Assembly (NCBI RefSeq): GCF_001646785.1
Contig: NZ_LRRH01000066.1
Location: 1 to 52,777 of the forward strand
Origin: Rhodococcus phenolicus
Lineage (GTDB): Bacteria; Actinomycetota; Actinomycetes; Mycobacteriales; Mycobacteriaceae
Direction of reading: 5' to 3'
Length of the DNA: 52,777 nt
Made by a program: the position numbers and the translations under genes. The notes below the pieces were generated by a model, which was not told the origin of the DNA, did not search any database, and saw nothing but the letters and a program-made list of their open reading frames with translations. This document shows positions 32,974 through 42,565 of the stretch, one piece after another; within the stretch, counting starts at the first letter, position 1, and every line of letters starts with the position of its first letter.

Positions 32974-34806
32974 TCAGCCGAGGCGCTGCTTGAGGGCCTC
33001 GAACTCGTCGCGGATGCCCGAGGGCACCTTCTCACCGAGGAACTCGAACCACTCGGCGATGCCGTCGATCTCGGCCTTCCACTCGTCGACGTCGACCTTC
33101 AGGGCCTCGTCGACGTCGGCCGCGTCGACGTCGAGGCCGTCGAGGGTCAGGTCGGCGGCGGTCGGGACGTAGCCGATCGGGGTGGACTGCGCGTCGGCCT
33201 TGTGCTCGATGCGGTCGACGATCCACTTCAGCACGCGCGAGTTCTCGCCGAAGCCGGGCCACAGGAAGCGGCCGTCGTCGCCGCGACGGAACCAGTTCAC
33301 GTAGAAGATCTTCGGCAGCTTCGCCGAGTCGGCGTTCTTACCGAGCGTGATCCAGTGGTTGAGGTAGTCGCCGGCGTTGTAACCGAGGAACGGCAGCATC
33401 GCCATCGGGTCGCGACGCACGCTGCCGACCTTGCCCTCGGCGGCGGCGGTCTGCTCGGACGACAGGGTGGCACCGAGGAACGTGCCGTGCTGCCAGTCGA
33501 AGGACTCGCTGACCAGCGGGACCGTCGTCTTGCGGCGACCACCGAACAGGATCGCGGAGATCGGCACACCCTGCGGGTCGTCCCACTCGGGAGCGAGGAT
33601 CGGGCACTGCGACATCGGGGTGCAGTAACGCGAGTTCGGGTGGGCGGCCTTCGTGTCGGACTCGGGGGTCCAGTCGTTGCCGAGCCAGTCGGTCAGGTGA
33701 GCGGGGGCGTCGCCACCGATACCCTCCCACCAGATGTCACCGTCGTCGGTCTTCGCGACGTTGGTGTAGATGGTGTTGCCGGCCTCGATGGTGTGCATCG
33801 CGTTCGGGTTGGAATCGGCGCTGGTGCCGGGCGCGACACCGAAGAAGCCGAACTCCGGGTTCACGGCGTACAGGCGGCCGTCCTCACCGAAACGCATCCA
33901 GGCGATGTCGTCGCCGAGGGTCTCGGCACGCCACCCCGGGATGGTCGGCTGGATCATCGCGAGGTTGGTCTTGCCGCACGCCGACGGGAACGCCGCGGCG
34001 ACGTAGTACGCCTTGTCCTCGGGCGAGATCAGCTTGAGGATGAGCATGTGCTCGGCGAGCCAGCCCTCGTCGTGGGCCATCGCGGACGCGATACGCAGCG
34101 AGTAGCACTTCTTGCCGAGCAGCGCGTTGCCGCCGTAGCCGGAACCGAAGCTCCAGATCTCGCGGTCCTCGGGGAAGTGGGTGATGTACTTGGTGTCGTT
34201 GCACGGCCACGCCACGTCCTGCCGGCCGGGCTCGAGCGGTGCGCCGACGGAGTGCAGGGCCTTCACGAACGGACGGTCCGTGCCGAGCTTCTCGAGCGCC
34301 GCGGTACCCATGCGGGTCATGATGCGCATGGACACGACCACGTATTCGGAGTCGGTGAGTTCCACGCCGAGCTTCGGGTCGTCGGCTCCGAGCGGGCCCA
34401 TGCAGAACGGCACGACGAAGAGCGTGCGACCGCGCATGCTGCCGCGGTACAGCTCGGTCATCGTGGCGCGCATCTCGGCCGGGTCGACCCAGTTGTTCGT
34501 CGGGCCGGCGTCGATCTCGTTCTTCGAGCAGATGTACGTGCGGGACTCGACGCGCGCGACGTCCGACGGGTCGGAGTTGGCGAGGAACGAGTTCGGCTTC
34601 TTCTCGTCGTTCAGACGCGTGAAGGTTCCGGCCTCCACCAGCTGGGTGGTCAGCCGATCCCATTCCTCATCGGAGCCGTCGGCCCAGACAACACGATCCG
34701 GCTCGGTGAGCTCGGCAACCTCCTGGACCCAGGCAAGCAACTCGGCATGCTGGGTCGGGGGCTTGTCGTCGGTTCCGTTGAGACCGGGAATGGTCGCTGA
34801 GGTCAT
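32974..34806 (-). CDS. pckA: Phosphoenolpyruvate carboxykinase (GTP)
   Basis: 610-aa GTP-type PEP carboxykinase, converting oxaloacetate and GTP to PEP in gluconeogenesis; needed for growth on fatty acids or sterols. The P-loop with the hyper-reactive cysteine is [12 protein letters not shown] (about residue 275), the second nucleotide motif is GDDIAWM, and [12 protein letters not shown] and NHWITLGKN are conserved substrate regions. ATG 34806 has AGGAG 6 bases upstream; the TTG just before it is not needed. The 273-bp region upstream is the longest gap in the window and contains several inverted repeats. It is downstream of the degenerate-GTPase operon, in the same relative order as Rv0209-Rv0210-pckA. 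Confidence 0.97.
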
Positions 34807-34920
34807 CAAACTCTCCTGGGGTGTGCCCGGAACCGGATCCCGCCTCCGACCTGCACAAATGCACGCAGAAACCAGTGGCAGACCCGGGATTCCCCTCTCG
34901 GCAGGGGTACCACCCGATCC

Positions 34921-35082: not shown

Positions 35083-35409
35083 TCACTCCCGGCCCAGGTT
35101 TCCGGCGTCCACGCGCAGCCAGCGCGGTGTCCCGTCGGGTTCGCGATGGAACTCCCACACCCCGAACTCGCCGTCGTCGGCGATCGCGGTGAGGCGGTCG
35201 GCACTGCCGTCGTCGTCCAGGTCCGTCGCGACGACCAGCGCCGACGGCGACGACAGGGTGACTGTATCGAAGGCGCCGTCACCGTCGAGGTCCGCGGTCG
35301 GACTCGCGGCATCCGCCAGGGCGGCGACGGCGATCGGGTCGAACGGCGTGCCCGAGGCGAATCCCTCGGGTTCGGGCTGCCAATCGGGAATCAGGGAACT
35401 CTCCACCAT
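35083..35409 (-). CDS. Small acidic protein with two DxDxDG calcium-loop-like repeats
   Basis: 108 aa, no signal peptide or membrane segment. Residues about 40-75 contain ADLDGDGAFDTV and TDLDDDGSADRL, two EF-hand/dockerin/VCBS-type acidic loops that usually bind calcium, followed by WEFHREPDGTPRWLRV. ATG 35409 is preceded by GAGGAGG with ideal spacing; the longer open frame upstream overlaps another gene. It is the last of three genes in a minus-strand operon, 38 bp after the second degenerate GTPase-like gene. The function is unknown; I recall similar small actinobacterial proteins annotated only as DUFs. Confidence 0.75.
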   Translation of the reverse strand: MVESSLIPDWQPEPEGFASGTPFDPIAVAALADAASPTADLDGDGAFDTVTLSSPSALVVATDLDDDGSADRLTAIADDGEFGVWEFHREPDGTPRWLRVDAGNLGRE

Positions 35410-35447
35410 CCGTGCCTCCTCGTCCGTGCCCGCGTGTTTCCGGGTTC

Positions 35448-36863
35448 TCACAGGGTTGGACGCGCCGGAAGCACCCGCGGTTCCCCCGTCCGGGGCCGGT
35501 TCGGCCGGTCGAGGGAGGCCAGGTCCCGGCGGCAGGCCTCGAGCCGGACGTTCCGCTCCCCGAGGCGACGGCGCAGTTCCTCGTCGAGCGCGGCGATCCG
35601 ATCGTGCAGCGCCGATACCCGGGCGGTGTGCTCGGCCGCGACGGTCGCGGCCGCCCGGGCCTCGGCGTCGACGACCCGGGCGAGCACCCACGCGTCCAGC
35701 TCGGCGCGGATCTCGGTGAGTTCGTCGGTCACCCAGCGCCGCGCGCGGTCGCGGGCGGCGATCCGGCGCCGGACCCGTACCAGCCACCACGCGGCACCCA
35801 GGCCGGCCACGAGGGTGATCGGCACCGTCGCCACGTGTGCGGCGGGGACCGCTTCGAGCGGGAAGGCCAGCAGCCGGCCCAGCCCGGCACCCGCGGACGC
35901 GCCGAGCACCACTGTGAGCCGATCCTCGACGGTGCCGGTGGCCGGCGGCATCGGTACCGGACTTCGCTGCGGCGCGGTGCCCGGCTCGCCGAGCCGGGCG
36001 GTCACGATCGCCGACACCCGGTCGCGCAGGGCCCGCACCGCTGCGGCGAGCAACTCCGGGGCCTGCTCGGGATCGGTGTCCACGGCGTCGCGGACCGCCG
36101 CGGCGGTGGCCCGCACGCCGGCGGCCACCTCCTGCAGCAACTCGAACCGGGCACGCTGCAGGTCGCCGCGGACCCGGCCGGCCGGGTCCGCGGGCGCAGC
36201 CGTCCGCTGCACGAGCCGCGCGCGCTCGGCGCGCAGCGCTGCTCCGTCGTCGGCGCGCAGCCCTTCCACGGTCTCGGCGATCACGGCGCGCGTCCGCGCG
36301 ATCACCGCCGACCGCGCGACGGTCCCGATGTGCGCGGCCGCGGTGGCGGCACGCAGCATCTCGTGCAGGTCGACGATGCCCGACTCGAGCCGCAGCACGT
36401 GCCCGGCATCGCCACCGATCTCACGGGCGCGGGCCGCGGCGGTCGCGGCGACCGGCAGGATCGCCACCTCGGGCAGGCTCGCGTGCCGCTGGAGCAGCGC
36501 GACATCGGCGTCGAGAACACCACGCCATCCGGGATAGCGGTCGATGCCGGTGAGGGCGCACACCACACGCGCGGCGCCCTGCGCGGCGGACTCGAGCACG
36601 GACAGTTCGGTGCGGCCGACGAACGCGGACGCGTCGAGAACCAGGAGCACGACCGCGGCGGACCCGTCGCGCACGTACTCGACGTCCGGTCCTCCGGTCT
36701 CCCGGCACAGTTCCTCGAGTTCCCCGATGAGCTCGTCCTCGCCGGAGCCGGGCACCGCGGCGACCCGGACCCGCGGTGCGGGCGTCGTCCCGTGCAGACG
36801 CGCCCATCCGTCCGGATTCCATCGGCGCACCACGTCGTCCGCAGCGGCGGCCGGTTCGGTCAC
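35448..36863 (-). CDS. Degenerate dynamin/GTPase-like membrane protein (Rv0210 position)
   Basis: 471 aa. Residues 25-165 read like a G domain without its chemistry: strand VRVAAVPG with GSGEDEL where GxxxxGK(S/T) should be, AVVLLVLDAS, ALTGIDRYPGW where dynamins have TKxDLYPxW, and LPVAA in place of the G5 SAK. Residues 170-300 are long helices; about 310-350 form a hydrophobic hairpin (LGASAGAGLGRLL and VPITLVAGLGAAWWLV) that could enter the membrane; the rest is charged coiled helix. This order (G domain, stalk, membrane hairpin, helix) resembles bacterial dynamin-like proteins. GTG 36863 overlaps the previous stop (GTGA). The gene order around it equals Rv0209-Rv0210-pckA. Function is unknown. 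Confidence 0.75.
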   Translation of the reverse strand: MTEPAAAADDVVRRWNPDGWARLHGTTPAPRVRVAAVPGSGEDELIGELEELCRETGGPDVEYVRDGSAAVVLLVLDASAFVGRTELSVLESAAQGAARVVCALTGIDRYPGWRGVLDADVALLQRHASLPEVAILPVAATAAARAREIGGDAGHVLRLESGIVDLHEMLRAATAAAHIGTVARSAVIARTRAVIAETVEGLRADDGAALRAERARLVQRTAAPADPAGRVRGDLQRARFELLQEVAAGVRATAAAVRDAVDTDPEQAPELLAAAVRALRDRVSAIVTARLGEPGTAPQRSPVPMPPATGTVEDRLTVVLGASAGAGLGRLLAFPLEAVPAAHVATVPITLVAGLGAAWWLVRVRRRIAARDRARRWVTDELTEIRAELDAWVLARVVDAEARAAATVAAEHTARVSALHDRIAALDEELRRRLGERNVRLEACRRDLASLDRPNRPRTGEPRVLPARPTL

Positions 36864-37456
36864 CGGGGACCCAGCGTGTCGAGCGCGTCCTCGATCACGT
36901 CCCGCGCGGGCGGCGTCGCGGCGATCCCCGCGACCGTCCGGGCCAGCTCGTCGTCGCGGCGACGGCGGGCGCGCTGCAGCCGCGCGGCGACCGCGGCGGC
37001 GAGGGCCTCGGTGTCCGAGACCGGGAGCACCGGCGTCCGCAGTTGCTCGGCAACCGCGGTGAGCGCCGCGCCGGGGTCCGCGAGCTGCTCGGTACCGGTG
37101 AGCACCACGACGACGCGCCCTGCCTCGGCACGGGCGATCGTGGTCCGGTCCACCGGGTGGATCGCGTGCGGAGGGCACCGGACGGCGGTCACCTGGACCA
37201 CGACGTCGCCGTCGACGACCGGATCGGGGCGGCCCGGCACGTCCATTTCGAGGTGTTCGACCGTGTAACCGGCCGCCGATTCCACGGGGGCGAGATCCCG
37301 GCCTCCGCTGCCGGCGCGCTCGACGACCTGCACGGTCAACGGCCGGTCCCGAGCGCGTAGCGCCGCGTGCACAGCGCGGCCCGCAGTCGCGTCGATCCGC
37401 TCGACGCGCTGCGCCAGCGCATGCCACCCGTCGTCGAAATCCCCCACCACGAACAT
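36860..37456 (-). CDS. Degenerate GTPase-like partner protein (Rv0209 position)
   Basis: 198 aa, no membrane segment. After an N-terminal helix (GWHALAQRVERIDATAG) it shows the same fold pattern as the next gene product but shorter: strand LTVQVVERAGSGGRDL (loop lacking the P-loop Lys), VVVQVTAV, VVVVLTGTEQL (where T/N-K-x-D would be) and TPVLPVSD, then a helical tail. I read it as a paralogous pseudo-GTPase half that pairs with the 471-aa protein. ATG 37456 is used; GTG 37450, 6 bases after a GGGGG run, is a good alternative. It is the first gene of a three-gene operon and divergent from trmB. Shorter than Rv0209 as I recall it. Confidence 0.7.
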   Translation of the reverse strand: MFVVGDFDDGWHALAQRVERIDATAGRAVHAALRARDRPLTVQVVERAGSGGRDLAPVESAAGYTVEHLEMDVPGRPDPVVDGDVVVQVTAVRCPPHAIHPVDRTTIARAEAGRVVVVLTGTEQLADPGAALTAVAEQLRTPVLPVSDTEALAAAVAARLQRARRRRDDELARTVAGIAATPPARDVIEDALDTLGPR

Positions 37457-37471
37457 CCCCCGAAATGTCCC

Positions 37472-37494
37472 CGACAACCGTGGACGGATTGTCG
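37472..37494. promoter_or_regulatory. 23-bp nearly perfect palindrome in the trmB/pseudo-GTPase divergent promoter
   Basis: CGACAA-CCGT-GG-ACGG-A-TTGTCG, one bulged base. On the minus strand it contains GACAAT preceded by TGC, the likely -10 of the pseudo-GTPase operon, and ends 15 bp before ATG 37456. It can act as an operator or as a 5'-terminal RNA hairpin. Confidence 0.5.
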
Positions 37495-37590
37495 CAGACG
37501 AGGCGCCCGGCGGCAGCGGACCTGAGAAAACCCTGTGGTCACACCAGTCCCTTCTGTCACGCACTCCCGAGATACGCGACAATGGGTGCC

Positions 37591-38331
37591 GTGAACGAAG
37601 CCGATCAGCACACGACCGAGACGCCGGAACAGCGCCCGACGCGAGGAAACCGCCTCTACCCGCGGGTGACGAGTTTCCGTTCCCGTCGCGGCTCGCTGAC
37701 CGAGCCGCAGCAGGAATCGTGGGACCGCCAGTGGCCCCACCTCGGCCGCGACGTCGGCGACGACCTGCTCGACCTCGACGGCTGGTTCGGCCGCAGCGCC
37801 CCGACCGTCCTCGAGATCGGCTCGGGCACCGGTACCGCCGCGGTGGCGATGGCCCAGGCCGAACCGCACGTCAACCTGATCGCGATCGAGGTCTACAAGC
37901 CCGGCATCGCCCAGACGCTGCAGCGCATCGAACGCACCCTCGGCACCGAGCAGCCCGTGCACAACCTGCGGATCCTGCGCGGCGACGCCGTCGAGGTGCT
38001 CGAGCACATGGTGGCGCCGGAGTCCCTCACCGGTGTGCGGGTGTTCTTCCCGGACCCGTGGCCCAAGGCCCGCCACCACAAGCGGCGCCTGCTGCAGGGC
38101 CCGACGTTCGCGCTGATCGCGAGCCGCCTGAAGCCCGGCGGGGTGTTGCACGTGGCCACGGACCACGCCGAATACGCCGTCGCGATCGAAGAGGCCGGCA
38201 ATGCCGAACCCCTCCTCGCACCGGTCGACTGGGACTCGCCGATCAGCCACGAGCGGCCCGTCACCAAGTTCGAGAACAAGGCTCACCAGGTGGGCAGCGC
38301 CATCACCGAGCTGATCTGGGGGAAGATCTGA
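37591..38331 (+). CDS. trmB: tRNA (guanine-N7-)-methyltransferase TrmB
   Basis: 246 aa, methylates G46 of tRNA with SAM. Motif I is VLEIGSGTGTAAVAMAQAEP, motif II region LIAIEVYKPGIAQTL, and the family signature FPDPWPKARHHKRRL is intact, as is the C-terminal TKFENKAHQVG. GTG 37591 is chosen because GACAAT ends 7 bp before it (leaderless layout); ATG 37582 is in frame and cannot be excluded. First gene of trmB-NYN-mmpL3, the same order as Rv0208c-Rv0207c-Rv0206c, with 2-bp and 11-bp gaps, so a tRNA-modifying enzyme is co-expressed with an essential mycolate exporter. Confidence 0.95.
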   Translation: MNEADQHTTETPEQRPTRGNRLYPRVTSFRSRRGSLTEPQQESWDRQWPHLGRDVGDDLLDLDGWFGRSAPTVLEIGSGTGTAAVAMAQAEPHVNLIAIEVYKPGIAQTLQRIERTLGTEQPVHNLRILRGDAVEVLEHMVAPESLTGVRVFFPDPWPKARHHKRRLLQGPTFALIASRLKPGGVLHVATDHAEYAVAIEEAGNAEPLLAPVDWDSPISHERPVTKFENKAHQVGSAITELIWGKI

Positions 38332-38333
38332 GC

Positions 38334-39026
38334 ATGAGCCTCGACGAAGATATGTCCGCCCCGTCCGATTCGGCGGCGACGACAGGCGGCAACCCGCACC
38401 GGCGCGTGCTGCTCGTGTGGGATGCGCCGAACCTCGACATGGGGCTCGGAGCGATCCTGGGCGGCCGTCCCACCGCGGCGTACCGGCCCCGGTTCGACGC
38501 GCTCGGCCGCTGGTTGCTCAGCCGCACCGCCGAACTGTCCCGTTCGACCTCGGCAAGCCTCGAACCCGAAGCGACGGTGTTCACGAACATCGCGCCCGGC
38601 AGCGCCGACGTCGTCCGCCCGTGGGTCGAGGCGCTGCGCAACGTCGGTTTCGCGGTGTTCGCCAAACCCAAGATCGACGAGGACAGCGACGTCGACTCCG
38701 ATATGCTGCGGCACATCGAGCTGCGGCACAGCGAGGGCCTCGCCGGTGTGATGGTGGCTTCCGCGGACGGGCAGGCGTTCCGCGAACCCCTGGAGGAACT
38801 CGCCAACGCCGGCATCGCGGTCCAGGTGCTCGGGTTCCGCGAACACGCCAGCTGGGCGGTCACGTCCGAGATCCTCGACTTCGTCGATCTCGAGGACATC
38901 CCCGGCGTGTTCCGTGAGCCGCTGCCGCGCGTCAGCCTGGACATGCTCCCGGACGAGGGTGCCTGGCTGCAGCCGTTCCGACCGCTTTCCGCCTTGCTCG
39001 TCGGGCGCAAGAGCGTCGCCGAATAG
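38334..39026 (+). CDS. NYN-domain (PIN-like) putative nuclease, Rv0207c-like
   Basis: 230 aa. The NYN core starts at residue 24 with VLLVWDAPNLDMG (first acidic residues), continues with SDVDSDMLRHI and MVASADGQAF, and ends in a C-terminal extension rich in Pro/Leu. The conserved aspartates of PIN-like RNases are therefore present, so RNA cleavage is plausible but the target is unknown. ATG 38334 is 2 bp after the trmB stop with GGGGAAG upstream, and mmpL3 begins 11 bp after its stop. The fixed linkage to mmpL3 across mycolate-producing bacteria suggests a link to MmpL3 expression or tRNA/RNA control. Confidence 0.88.
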   Translation: MSLDEDMSAPSDSAATTGGNPHRRVLLVWDAPNLDMGLGAILGGRPTAAYRPRFDALGRWLLSRTAELSRSTSASLEPEATVFTNIAPGSADVVRPWVEALRNVGFAVFAKPKIDEDSDVDSDMLRHIELRHSEGLAGVMVASADGQAFREPLEELANAGIAVQVLGFREHASWAVTSEILDFVDLEDIPGVFREPLPRVSLDMLPDEGAWLQPFRPLSALLVGRKSVAE

Positions 39027-39037
39027 GAGACTTTCAC

Positions 39038-42000
39038 GTGTTCGACCGCTGGGGAGAGCTCGTCTTCCGCGCCCGTTTCACGGTGATCGCGGTGATGGTC
39101 GCCGCCTTGCTGGGGCTGGCCGGATACGGGCTCAGCCTGAACGACCATCTCAGTCAGGGCGGCTGGTTCGACCCCGGCTCACAGTCGGTCGCGGCCGCAG
39201 AACTGGCCGACAGCACCTTCGGTCGTGACACGAGCGGCGACGTTCTCGTGCTGTACACGGCACCCGAGGGCAAGACCGTCGACGACCCCGCATTCGCCGC
39301 GCAGGTCAAGGACAGCCTGAACACGGTGCTCGCGGACCATCCCGACGAGATCCTCAAGATCAACGGCGCCTACTGGCCCACGAACGGCGCACCCGCACTG
39401 CCGGCGCTCGCCGACGAGTCCCGCCAGCACGCGGTCGCGTCGATCGCGCTCGTCGGCGACGACGACACCGCGCTGACCAACAACTTCCGCGAGATCAAGG
39501 ACTCGTTCGCCATCGACGGCGTCGAGGTGCAGCTCGCCGGTCTGCAACCGATCGCCGGTGCCCTCAACGACACGATGGCGAACGACATCCACCGCATGGA
39601 GATCCTTGCGATCCCCGCCGTCGGCATCCTGTTGTTCTTCGTCTTCGGGGGTGTGATCGCCGCGTCCCTGCCGCTCATCACCGGTGGCCTCACGATCATC
39701 GCCGCGAACGGCATCGTCCGGTTCATCACCAACTTCGCCGAGGTCAACGCGTTCGTCGCCCCCGTGGTGTCGCTCATCGGCCTCGGATTGGCGATCGACT
39801 ACGGCCTGTTCATGGTGTCCCGATTCCGTGAAGAACTCGCCGAGGGCTACGAGACGGCCGCCGCAGTCCGGCGCACGGTCATCACCGCCGGACGCACCGT
39901 CGTGTTCTCGGCGACGATGGTGATCACCAGCCTCGGCGGCCTGCTGCTGTTCCCGCAGGCCTTCCTCAAGTCCGTCGCATACGGCGCGATCGCCGCGGTC
40001 TCCCTCGCCGCCTTCACGTCGATCACGCTGCTCCCCGCGATCTTGAGCATCCTCGGCAAGCGCATCGACAAATTCGGCTGGAAACGGTTCGGCCAGATCC
40101 AGTCGAACGAGCAGATCGAGGAAAGCCTCATCGGCCGCCTCACCCGCTGGGTGATGCGCAACCCGATGAAGGTCGCCATCCCCACCGTCGTCGGCCTCCT
40201 CCTGCTCATCATGCCGCTGACCGGCATCAAGTTCGGCGGCATGAACGAGACGCTTCTCCCGCCCGACAGCGCCACCCGTGTCGCGCAGGAGAAGTTCGAC
40301 GAACTCTTCCCCGGACAGCGCGCCGAGCCGATCAAGCTCATCGTGGAAGGAGCCCAGGGCGGCGCCCTCAACGAGGTACGACGCGCCGCGAGCGACGCGC
40401 CCGGCCTCGTCGAAGAATTCAAGATCTCGGGGCCCGAGAAGGACGGCGTCCGCGTCCTGACCGCCGGATTGCAGAACCGGGCCGACGCCAACCCGACACT
40501 CGACTATCTCCACGCCATCGAATGGCCCGACGGGGTCACCGTCATGATCGGCGGCACACCCGCCCTCGAGTACGACTCGATCGTCGCGCTCCTGGACACC
40601 CTTCCGCTCATGGTCGTGATCGTCGTGACGTTGACGACCCTGCTCATGTTCCTCGCCTTCGGCTCCCTCGTGCTGCCGATCAAGGCCGCGCTCATGAGCG
40701 CACTCGGCCTCGGATCCACCCTCGGCATCCTCACCTGGATCTTCATCGACGGCCACGGCTCGACCCTCGCGAACTTCACCCCCGGCCCGATCTTCTCGCC
40801 GATCCTCGTGTTGATCATCGCGATCATCTACGGCCTGTCCACCGACTACGAGGTGTTCCTGCTCTCGCGGATGGTCGAGGCCCGGTCGCAGGGTGCGAGC
40901 ACCACCGAATCCATCCGGATCGGCACTTCCCACACCGGGCGCATCATCACCGCAGCCGCGATGATCCTCATCGTCGTCACCGGTGCCTTCGCGTTCTCCG
41001 AACTCGTGCTCATGAAGTACATCGCGTTCGGCATGATCGCCGCGCTGATCATCGACGCGACCGTCATCCGCATGTTCCTCGTGCCCGCGACCATGAAACT
41101 GCTCGGCGACGACTGCTGGTGGGCACCCGCATGGATGAAACGCATCCAGGAGAAGATCGGACTCGGCGAACCGATCCTCGCCGACGAGCTGATGCCTCAG
41201 GACGTGCCCGAGCTCATCACCGTCGGCATGTTCGGCCCGGCCACCGTCGCCGCGACCGGAGCACATCGCCTTCCGCCGATGGTTCCCGGCATCGGCGCGT
41301 CGGACATGACCCAGCCGCTGCCCAAGATCGCAGCACCCCGCTCCTCCGCCGAACAACGCCGCGCCCGGGAGTTCCCGCCCGCACCGCGACGCCCCTCGCC
41401 CTCCCGCGCCGGCCGGGTGCCCGTCCCCACACCGGATCGGCACCTCCGGCCCGCCCGGCAGAGCCCGGGACAGCCGCCGGTCGCGAACGGGACCGTCGCG
41501 CCTCCACCGCAGCACGGCCGAGCGGCACCACCGCAGCGCGAACAAGCGGCACCGCCGCAGCGCGGCCATACGGCCCCGCCGCAGCGCGAACAAGCGGCAC
41601 CACCGCAGCGCGAACAAGCGGCACCGCCGCAGCGCGGCCACACGGCACCGCCGCGACAAGCTCCGGTCCGGCACGACAGCGCCGAGGTCCGACGAGAGCA
41701 AGCGGCCCCGCCGCAGCCACGGCAGGCCCCGCCCGCCTGGTACGACAGCACCGCGCTCCAACGCAACCAGCCGCCCGCCCCGCCGCAGCGCGACCCAGCG
41801 GCACCGCCGCAGCGCGACCCAGCGGCACCGCCGCAGCGCGAACACGCGGCACCGCCGCAGCGCACCGACAGTGCCTCGTTGCCCCGCCGCACGCAGGCAC
41901 CGTCGGATCGGCCGATGCGTCCCGGCCCGCCGATGCCTCCGCCACCTCGCCAGGCAACACCGCTCCCCCAGCGGCAGGGGACGGACCAACCGCCGTTGCC

Positions 42001-42565
42001 TCGCCGGACCGCACCCGACCAGCGGCGTCCCGCGGAACCGCAGGCGCCGACATCGGTGCCCCAGTTGCCGCCGACGACCGTGTCACCGCACGGCCCCACG
42101 GGCCTGCCTCACGTGTCGGCCACGATCGTCCCGCCGCTGCCGCCGCGTGACGTTCAGGGTTCGGCACCCGCGCCGGACCCGCAGTCCCCGACTGCGATCC
42201 CGCAGCTGCCGCGCCGTCAGCGCGGGACCGTGCCGCCGCCGCTGCCGCACCCGTTCGTGCGTCCGCAGGCACCGCAGCGGCCGCCCGCCGGTCCGGCGCC
42301 GGGGCCACGCCCGGAAGGGGCGCGCACCCGCGATCCGCAGGCGATCGAGAACTGGTTGTCGCAGCTGCGTCGTATGGCACCCGGCGCCGAACAACCACGC
42401 TCCTCGCGCCCGGCGCCGGCACCGCGGGAGCAGGATCCGCAGCTCGGCCGATACAGCGATCCGGATCCGGAGCGGTCCGGGCCGACCACCGGCCGGCACG
42501 GCGACGAGGACAACGCCGGGGGTATCAGCGTCAGCGAACTGATCGCCCGTCAGCGTCGCCCCTGA
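39038..42565 (+). CDS. mmpL3: Trehalose monomycolate exporter MmpL3 with extended repeat tail
   Basis: 1175-aa RND-family MmpL protein exporting trehalose monomycolate for the mycolate outer membrane. Residues 1-715 hold the standard core: 12 helices, two porter domains, and both proton-relay Asp-Tyr pairs, D254-Y255 (GLAIDYGLF) and D603-Y604 (GLSTDYEVF). The cytoplasmic tail from about residue 716 is 460 aa, far longer than I recall for M. tuberculosis MmpL3 (944 aa total). It is Pro/Gln/Arg-rich, with two blocks of PPQRxxAA octads, and ends NAGGISVSELIARQRRP. GTG 39038 has AGGAG 8 bases upstream. It is third in the trmB-NYN-mmpL3 operon. Confidence 0.95.
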   Translation: MFDRWGELVFRARFTVIAVMVAALLGLAGYGLSLNDHLSQGGWFDPGSQSVAAAELADSTFGRDTSGDVLVLYTAPEGKTVDDPAFAAQVKDSLNTVLADHPDEILKINGAYWPTNGAPALPALADESRQHAVASIALVGDDDTALTNNFREIKDSFAIDGVEVQLAGLQPIAGALNDTMANDIHRMEILAIPAVGILLFFVFGGVIAASLPLITGGLTIIAANGIVRFITNFAEVNAFVAPVVSLIGLGLAIDYGLFMVSRFREELAEGYETAAAVRRTVITAGRTVVFSATMVITSLGGLLLFPQAFLKSVAYGAIAAVSLAAFTSITLLPAILSILGKRIDKFGWKRFGQIQSNEQIEESLIGRLTRWVMRNPMKVAIPTVVGLLLLIMPLTGIKFGGMNETLLPPDSATRVAQEKFDELFPGQRAEPIKLIVEGAQGGALNEVRRAASDAPGLVEEFKISGPEKDGVRVLTAGLQNRADANPTLDYLHAIEWPDGVTVMIGGTPALEYDSIVALLDTLPLMVVIVVTLTTLLMFLAFGSLVLPIKAALMSALGLGSTLGILTWIFIDGHGSTLANFTPGPIFSPILVLIIAIIYGLSTDYEVFLLSRMVEARSQGASTTESIRIGTSHTGRIITAAAMILIVVTGAFAFSELVLMKYIAFGMIAALIIDATVIRMFLVPATMKLLGDDCWWAPAWMKRIQEKIGLGEPILADELMPQDVPELITVGMFGPATVAATGAHRLPPMVPGIGASDMTQPLPKIAAPRSSAEQRRAREFPPAPRRPSPSRAGRVPVPTPDRHLRPARQSPGQPPVANGTVAPPPQHGRAAPPQREQAAPPQRGHTAPPQREQAAPPQREQAAPPQRGHTAPPRQAPVRHDSAEVRREQAAPPQPRQAPPAWYDSTALQRNQPPAPPQRDPAAPPQRDPAAPPQREHAAPPQRTDSASLPRRTQAPSDRPMRPGPPMPPPPRQATPLPQRQGTDQPPLPRRTAPDQRRPAEPQAPTSVPQLPPTTVSPHGPTGLPHVSATIVPPLPPRDVQGSAPAPDPQSPTAIPQLPRRQRGTVPPPLPHPFVRPQAPQRPPAGPAPGPRPEGARTRDPQAIENWLSQLRRMAPGAEQPRSSRPAPAPREQDPQLGRYSDPDPERSGPTTGRHGDEDNAGGISVSELIARQRRP
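41510..41653 (+). repeat. Six tandem 24-bp units in the mmpL3 tail
   Basis: Six in-frame octads: QHGRAAPP, then QREQAAPP and QRGHTAPP in alternation with one doubled QREQAAPP (residues 825-872). DNA identity between units is high, suggesting recent slippage or duplication. Confidence 0.9.
41786..41857 (+). repeat. Second block of three 24-bp units in the mmpL3 tail
   Basis: QRDPAAPP twice and QREHAAPP once (from residue 917), the same octad type as the first block, about 130 bp downstream of it. Confidence 0.9.

Follow-up and report, generated by a model that had tools for sequence, protein, structure and literature searches.

A dynamin-like gene pair without switch segments beside pckA and mmpL3 in Rhodococcus phenolicus, a candidate static membrane scaffold

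Results

A coupled gene pair between pckA and mmpL3

The window analysed in this work is a whole 52,777-nucleotide stretch of Rhodococcus phenolicus DNA (contig NZ_LRRH01000066.1), and its subject is a pair of adjacent genes, here called A and B, followed by a small third gene, C (Table 1). The GTG start codon of B overlaps the stop codon of A (GTGA), and the motifs that a first-pass annotation of this DNA had described in A and B were all present, confirming its claim of two coupled genes; the start given there (37494) lies 38 bases upstream of the start of gene A (37456). The divergent NYN-domain neighbour is, we assume, of the Rv0207c type.

Searches of A and B against Pfam and NCBIfam gave nothing above the cut-off, and Pfam Dynamin_N did not match window B up to an E-value of 1. 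The best named relatives of B were proteins of R. zopfii and other Rhodococcus. Gene C belongs to DUF6802 (PF20615; E-value 7.8e-27, 93.7 bits compared to a Pfam cut-off of 27 bits) and is the sole match to this family in its own genome.

Table 1. Positions of the genes and protein motifs in the window.
Feature	Coordinates	Strand	Description
Gene A	36860..37456	(-)	First of the pair; 198-aa switchless pseudo-GTPase
Degenerate P-loop of A	37292..37318	(-)	RAGSGGRDL; G at the lysine position
Degenerate G4 of A	37085..37102	(-)	LTGTEQ; 43/52 switchless A keep xKx[DE] there
Gene B	35448..36863	(-)	471-aa switchless dynamin-like protein with hydrophobic hairpin
Degenerate P-loop of B	36729..36758	(-)	AVPGSGEDEL; E at the lysine position
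Degenerate G4 of B	36540..36551	(-)	TGID (LTGIDRYPGW), then RYPGW
Hydrophobic hairpin of B	35778..35930	(-)	Residues ~312-362, GASAGAGLGR...AAWWLVR; predicted paddle-like membrane element
Gene C	35083..35409	(-)	108 aa; DUF6802 member carrying two DxDxDG loops
pckA	32974..34809	(-)	Co-directional, after A-B-C
trmB	37582..38331	(+)	Divergent neighbour
NYN-domain gene	38331..39026	(+)	Divergent neighbour; domain name from the first-pass annotation, approximate start
mmpL3	39038..42565	(+)	Divergent neighbour

Predicted structures

A GTPase-like core was present in both predicted models (mean predicted local distance difference test score, pLDDT, 87.5 for A and 88.7 for B). The B model runs from the G domain through neck and trunk helices to the hydrophobic hairpin and a long C-terminal helix; A is mostly a pseudo-G domain. 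The P-loop lysine and G4 are degenerate in both proteins, so that A and B have a GTPase fold without its catalytic motifs and are pseudo-GTPases by sequence and model, as had been claimed. The top Foldseek matches of the B model, in the comparison with dynamin structures that had been advised, were IniA and BDLP, at low TM-scores; the best match of A was CENP-M (PDB 4p0t, 4wau). Domain order, the IniA and BDLP matches and the match to a profile of intact proteins (see below) uphold the description of B as dynamin-like, and fold and profile evidence rules out that it is an unrelated membrane protein. By the standard of intact G1 to G4 motifs B is no dynamin, since E stands in for the lysine, G3 and both switches are gone and G4 reads TGID; a single-sequence search of the PDB with B gave no useful match.

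Residue W113 of B, just past the degenerate G4, is invariant in the 18-row B alignment, and intact orthologues carry a similar GW motif at the equivalent site (for example TKTDAYRGW and TKTDTYPGW), indicating that RYPGW is a family remnant. Mean column conservation in the same alignment was 0.65 in the hairpin vs. 0.57 in the G domain.

Descent from an intact dynamin pair

A profile of 20 intact proteins matched window B at 1.2e-53, the best of the 349 open reading frames (ORFs) of the window, and a profile built from switchless relatives alone matched IniA at 1.6e-11. These profile matches show shared descent of B with intact dynamin-like proteins. Relatives of A in the family were matched by the intact-only A profile (up to 6.4e-29), and 35 such relatives, used as a profile without the genus Rhodococcus, matched window A at 2.1e-19, again the best of 349 ORFs. 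Shared descent of A with the intact dynamin members is thus traced through these intermediates only.

The B profile matched 92 of 150 genomes of the order, some of the matches being paralogues. A relative of A was found near B, mostly upstream, in 34 of 40 fetched loci (seed profile of nine sequences, one outgroup); a paralogous pair (L042) and a locus cut by a contig end (L066) were left out. Outgroup proteins were intact, with GR[IL]K[SA]GKST, DTPG and NKxD in most A and GExxxGKSS, DTPG and TKxD in most B, and both partners were Dynamin_N in Pfam where checked (L051). A GrpE-like gene lies between A and B in 17 of the 19 outgroup loci (L044-L058 and L067-L070; Pfam GrpE at 2.1e-7 in L051). 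This actinobacterial operon of dynamin, GrpE-like protein and dynamin hints that bacterial dynamins may be linked to a chaperone. pckA was within approximately 5 kb of B in seven of the 19 (L045, L046, L047, L051, L052, L053 and L070), while no trmB or mmpL3 turned up in any of the 19 stretches (14-15 kb each). Intact Dynamin_N pairs also lie beside pckA in two genera of the family to which the window belongs (loci L219 and L224), with no GrpE-like gene found in either locus, and L224 keeps the full order mmpL3-NYN-trmB / A-B / DUF6802 / pckA. As these neighbourhoods match, intact and decayed pairs share one locus.

Loss of the switch segment in both partners

In intact B, 147-154 residues separate the P-loop lysine position from G4, compared with 53-74 in switchless B (52 of 56 alignable); the corresponding figures for A are 153-195 (intact) and 49-92 (switchless, 51 of 52). 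The intact ranges include L219 and L224. A and B have therefore both lost the stretch of switch I, G3 and switch II, a deletion of approximately 85 residues in B and 100 in A. The A sequences of L214 and L238 (wrong ORF), a paralogue (L249) and a duplicate (L255) were left out.

In a tree of PckA and TrmB from 67 loci, the 55 switchless loci and three loci lacking A-B formed one clade of 58 (SH-aLRT 98), with L219 and L224 outside it, and loss of the switch segment mapped as one change. The tree is a quick one with a weak root and a long branch for L216; L237, with no pckA in the locus, was excluded. Motifs could not be aligned in B of L212, L214, L247 and L250 or in A of L250, and these four B rows were scored as switchless. 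The losses in A and B fall on the same branch, compatible with a joint loss as well as with successive ones.

The remaining motifs decayed less uniformly. The P-loop lysine is kept in 8/56 switchless B (two unaligned), all eight with xKxD, and in 5/52 switchless A, where 38/52 have arginine at this position; xKx[DE] is kept in 34/56 switchless B and in the A counted in Table 1. Natural variants of the R. tibetensis or Antrihabitans type retain GKS together with NKID or TKID. The lysine changed at least six times in B and at least four in A on the tree. The likely order was loss of the GrpE-like gene, then of the switch segment in both partners, then repeatedly of the P-loop lysine, and finally of G4 in some lineages, the window's included. 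Outside the family, the P-loop of an Actinomycetospora B-type protein (P0039) is damaged (GRGRGE) and its G3 region is shortened, which suggests independent decay.

Retention and selection

A B orthologue was found in all 18 own-genus genomes, R. phenolicus included, one of them in broken pieces (L169 and L170, one copy), and A was present in the 17 other genomes, with a frame change in one (L168). In 80 loci titled as mycobacterial, A adjoins B on the same strand in 80 and lies upstream in 79; pckA is missing in one and trmB in five, in some cases by contig ends and in others not. In one of these loci (L144) an unresolved base inside A places A and B in one frame; this and the frame change in L168 rule out an A-B fusion in either. 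The 80 are the best of 171 loci and include multiple strains of a single species; the B locus occurs twice on one M. palustre contig (L119 and L120), through either a duplication or an assembly artefact. The locus presumably equals Rv0209-Rv0210; no record titled M. tuberculosis is among the 80.

The P-loop lysine is absent from 80/80 mycobacterial B and 78/78 alignable A, and xKxD is present in 80/80 B and 76/76 alignable A, although the B motif (G1) counts are not neutral, as the loci were fetched by B with two peptide patterns, one covering the start of its P-loop (GP[WR]). In both proteins NKxD never varies at its K and D, and the flanking glycines of the P-loop are almost invariant. The B gene is present in 13/13 listed genomes of one mycobacterial genus (g2), and these loci, found without the P-loop pattern, agree on the motifs (some are from the same genomes as the 80). 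Of all observations, this contrast between a fixed base-recognition motif and a lost lysine speaks most strongly, if only as a hint, against a merely dead site.

Of the 31 genera sampled in the family, 26 showed a switchless pair, a tally in which g80 rests on weak matches; two genera have intact pairs (g65 and g71), two have lost the pair (g58 and g60) and one has an unopened match (g68). The pairwise ratio of nonsynonymous to synonymous substitution rates (dN/dS, NG86) was 0.10-0.42 in B (23 pairs), 0.21-0.85 in A (21 pairs) and 0-0.19 in PckA (23 pairs; a partial gene in the own-genus pairs). Nine own-genus pairs were picked by hand, and the 14 mycobacterial ones were those with a B dS of 0.15-0.8 (the first 14 of 1131 candidates, no reuse). 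All 23 B and 21 A values were below 1: the pair is retained under purifying selection. A random ORF at the position of A is ruled out by these values and by its presence in the other Rhodococcus genomes. Together with the intact orthologues in sister genera, the own-genus and mycobacterial counts agree with the earlier description of the pair as old and kept.

Neighbouring genes

In 40 family loci (L210-L248 and L250), B was present in 40, A in 40 (L214 and L238 included in an unreliable frame), trmB in 39, pckA in 39, mmpL3 in 38, the NYN-domain gene in 38 and DUF6802 in 37. The B profile matched 116/121 family genomes at 1e-3, some by intact paralogues (genus g58, for example), and MmpL3 matched 112/121 at 1e-120; genus g81 is below this threshold, yet mmpL3 was matched in both of its opened loci. 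Four loci of two small-genome genera, three in g58 and one in g60 (L251-L254), keep mmpL3-NYN-trmB, and no A-B was found in them. Conversely, the genome of L219 (G175) carries the pair in intact form but gave no match to MmpL3 at 1e-120, so that strict co-occurrence of A-B with mmpL3 does not hold. The pckA link of the pair reaches further than the mmpL3 link. The first-pass annotation had inferred that the pair works close to the machinery of mycolate export. Linkage with mmpL3 and trmB does hold in the family, but it is absent at the outgroup loci and four mmpL3 loci do without the pair. In the window, the tail of mmpL3 (41507-41863) harbours a 24-base tandem repeat (approximately 6 and 3.5 copies) with proline-/glutamine-rich coding.

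DUF6802 lies beside the locus in most of the non-mycobacterial genera sampled, including the intact L219 and L224, and DUF6802-like ORFs (38-39 bits) adjoin the intact pair in the outgroup loci L048 (two) and L049. It is absent from 80/80 mycobacterial loci and 3/40 other family loci; the mycobacterial version is therefore a two-gene set, DUF6802 is no general part of the mechanism, and the calcium tuning suggested earlier fails as a general feature. A DUF6802 match (42 bits) lies beside pckA in L251, where the pair is lacking, so C may outlive A-B. No DUF6802 papers were found in the open-access literature searched. The same literature assigned no function to the pair or to Rv0209/Rv0210, as the first-pass annotation had stated; the mentions of Rv0209/Rv0210, in the parts of the papers covered, were SNP or interval listings.

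Discussion

Proposed mechanism and its rivals

The ancestor of the pair was an intact heterotypic bacterial dynamin-like protein (DLP) GTPase pair in an operon of DLP-A, a GrpE-like gene and DLP-B. Within the family the GrpE-like gene probably went first, followed by switch I, G3 and switch II of both partners, and later by the P-loop lysines and, in some lineages such as that of the window, G4. This leaves a coupled pair in which B combines a pseudo-G domain, a helical neck and trunk and a putative membrane hairpin, and A is mostly a pseudo-G domain. By analogy with dynamin pairs, the two pseudo-G domains may face each other, and pairing with A could lock B into a permanently assembled scaffold or tether at the membrane. 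We hold with moderate confidence that the shrunken pair acts as a heteromeric, membrane-anchored scaffold or tether free of a GTP cycle. The computational evidence carries the fold, the descent, the deletion, the sequence of losses and retention under purifying selection, whereas contact between A and B, membrane insertion and a scaffold function are proposed. That the switch/G3 segment was lost from both partners on one branch, and that most genera kept the product for use as a static membrane scaffold, perhaps locked on a nucleotide and working without GTP hydrolysis, seems to us an evenly balanced proposition. The retention of the pair in most sampled relatives, despite the same loss of the engine, suggests that it is probably a fuel-free membrane scaffold.

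Several observations weigh against the scaffold reading. The TM-scores of B were low (0.21-0.28 for eight matches at E-values of 0.001 or less, with an rmsd of up to 49 Å), a consequence of a model bent differently from IniA and BDLP, and EF-Tu G domains top the realigned list. Beyond CENP-M, the fold matches of A are generic (flavodoxins and other Rossmann-like folds), and the intact-only A profile fails to detect window A directly. A also evolves faster than B, under weaker constraint, like a fading part, and a mirror-tree value for A and B is no test, as both are fast-evolving adjacent genes. Membrane insertion of the hairpin is predicted from its hydrophobicity and the model. Finally, the invariant NKxD of mycobacteria suggests that a guanine site may remain important, and a scaffold working wholly without nucleotide would have no need of one.

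This last point leads to the main rival, a scaffold in which at least one subunit holds GDP or GTP permanently through the P-loop glycines and NKxD, with neither switching nor hydrolysis, the nucleotide being a structural cofactor or a sensed ligand. The mycobacterial K, D and glycines, the lysine-keeping switchless B that all carry xKxD, and the analogy of some septin pseudo-GTPases (PMC10731463, in part) speak for it, but mycobacterial A and B lack the lysine throughout and the window lost both lysine and G4 in both proteins; we regard it as a tentative alternative, possible but less probable than the nucleotide-independent scaffold. With lysine and base-recognition motifs surviving as counted above, the earlier term nucleotide-free is too broad for the family, and the sequences leave room in many genera for nucleotide binding without hydrolysis.

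The other explanations appear less probable. Decayed paralogues often regulate active ones, and the R. phenolicus genome encodes an IniA orthologue (G000:C85, L071:4526-6349; 1.7e-176 to PDB 6j72) as well as another dynamin-like ORF (G000:C82, L072), so the pseudo-pair might join or poison IniA/IniC-type oligomers in the same cell. This is unlikely: the A-B and IniA-type loci are on different contigs, and the joint retention of both decayed partners better fits a complex of their own. We give still less credit to an accessory role in MmpL3 function and mycolate export, as read by the first-pass annotation from the divergent trmB-NYN-mmpL3 genes. The family linkage and the binding of MmpL3 by the neighbour Rv0207c, named in the main text of the MmpL3 interactome (PMC6656915, in part), fit such a role, but that main text, as far as covered, does not name Rv0209 or Rv0210, other families have intact pairs at loci where mmpL3 is lacking, L251-L254 have lost A-B and kept mmpL3, and the pckA link is the wider one. 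An MmpL3 role for A-B is thus unsupported, and so is a link to the drug target, even though the pair adjoins this major drug-target gene. Least credible of all is the view that the pair is a disappearing relic, kept solely through its position in the operon: the window's A is short, A has a faster rate of evolution than B, the frame of A is changed in one own-genus genome (L168) and the pair is gone from the opened loci of two genera, but a dN/dS below 1 in every pair tested and the persistence of the switchless pair in most genera argue otherwise.

Comparison with known systems

The scaffold reading can be set against systems already described. Mycobacterial IniA (IniBAC; PDB 6j72, 6j73) resembles B in fold, domain order and sequence; a GTP-bound structure is available for it, and the protein mediates fission of membranes (PMC6715688, in part). 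Unlike IniA, B has no switch I, G3, switch II or P-loop lysine, and R. phenolicus has a separate IniA orthologue. Cj-DLP1/2 of Campylobacter and DynA/DynB of Streptomyces are, like A and B, encoded by two adjacent dynamin-type genes, and A and B would likewise form a hetero-oligomer. The Campylobacter pair tethers membranes, and its hydrolysis needs heterotypic G-dimerisation (PMC6104087, in part); it hydrolyses GTP jointly, whereas A and B are both pseudo-GTPases. DynA and DynB stabilise FtsZ rings (PMC8748795, in part), and their likeness to A-B is one of gene arrangement, not an orthology assignment.

Degenerate GTPases are also known outside bacteria. CENP-M, the best fold match of A, is a human GTPase relative unable to bind GTP (PMC4080450, in part); it is a small-GTPase relative of the kinetochore, and no close kinship with A is claimed. 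Septin pseudo-GTPases resemble A-B in that G domains degenerated repeatedly within a hetero-oligomer, in A-B a presumed one (PMC10731463, in part). In septins activity was lost, sometimes with pocket substitutions, whereas in A-B a deletion took the switch region from both partners. Dynamins are defined by their GTP cycle; here, the cycle is gone from both members of a pair and the rest is kept, and because sister genera still carry intact orthologues at this locus, the question of what a dynamin can do without GTP is directly testable.
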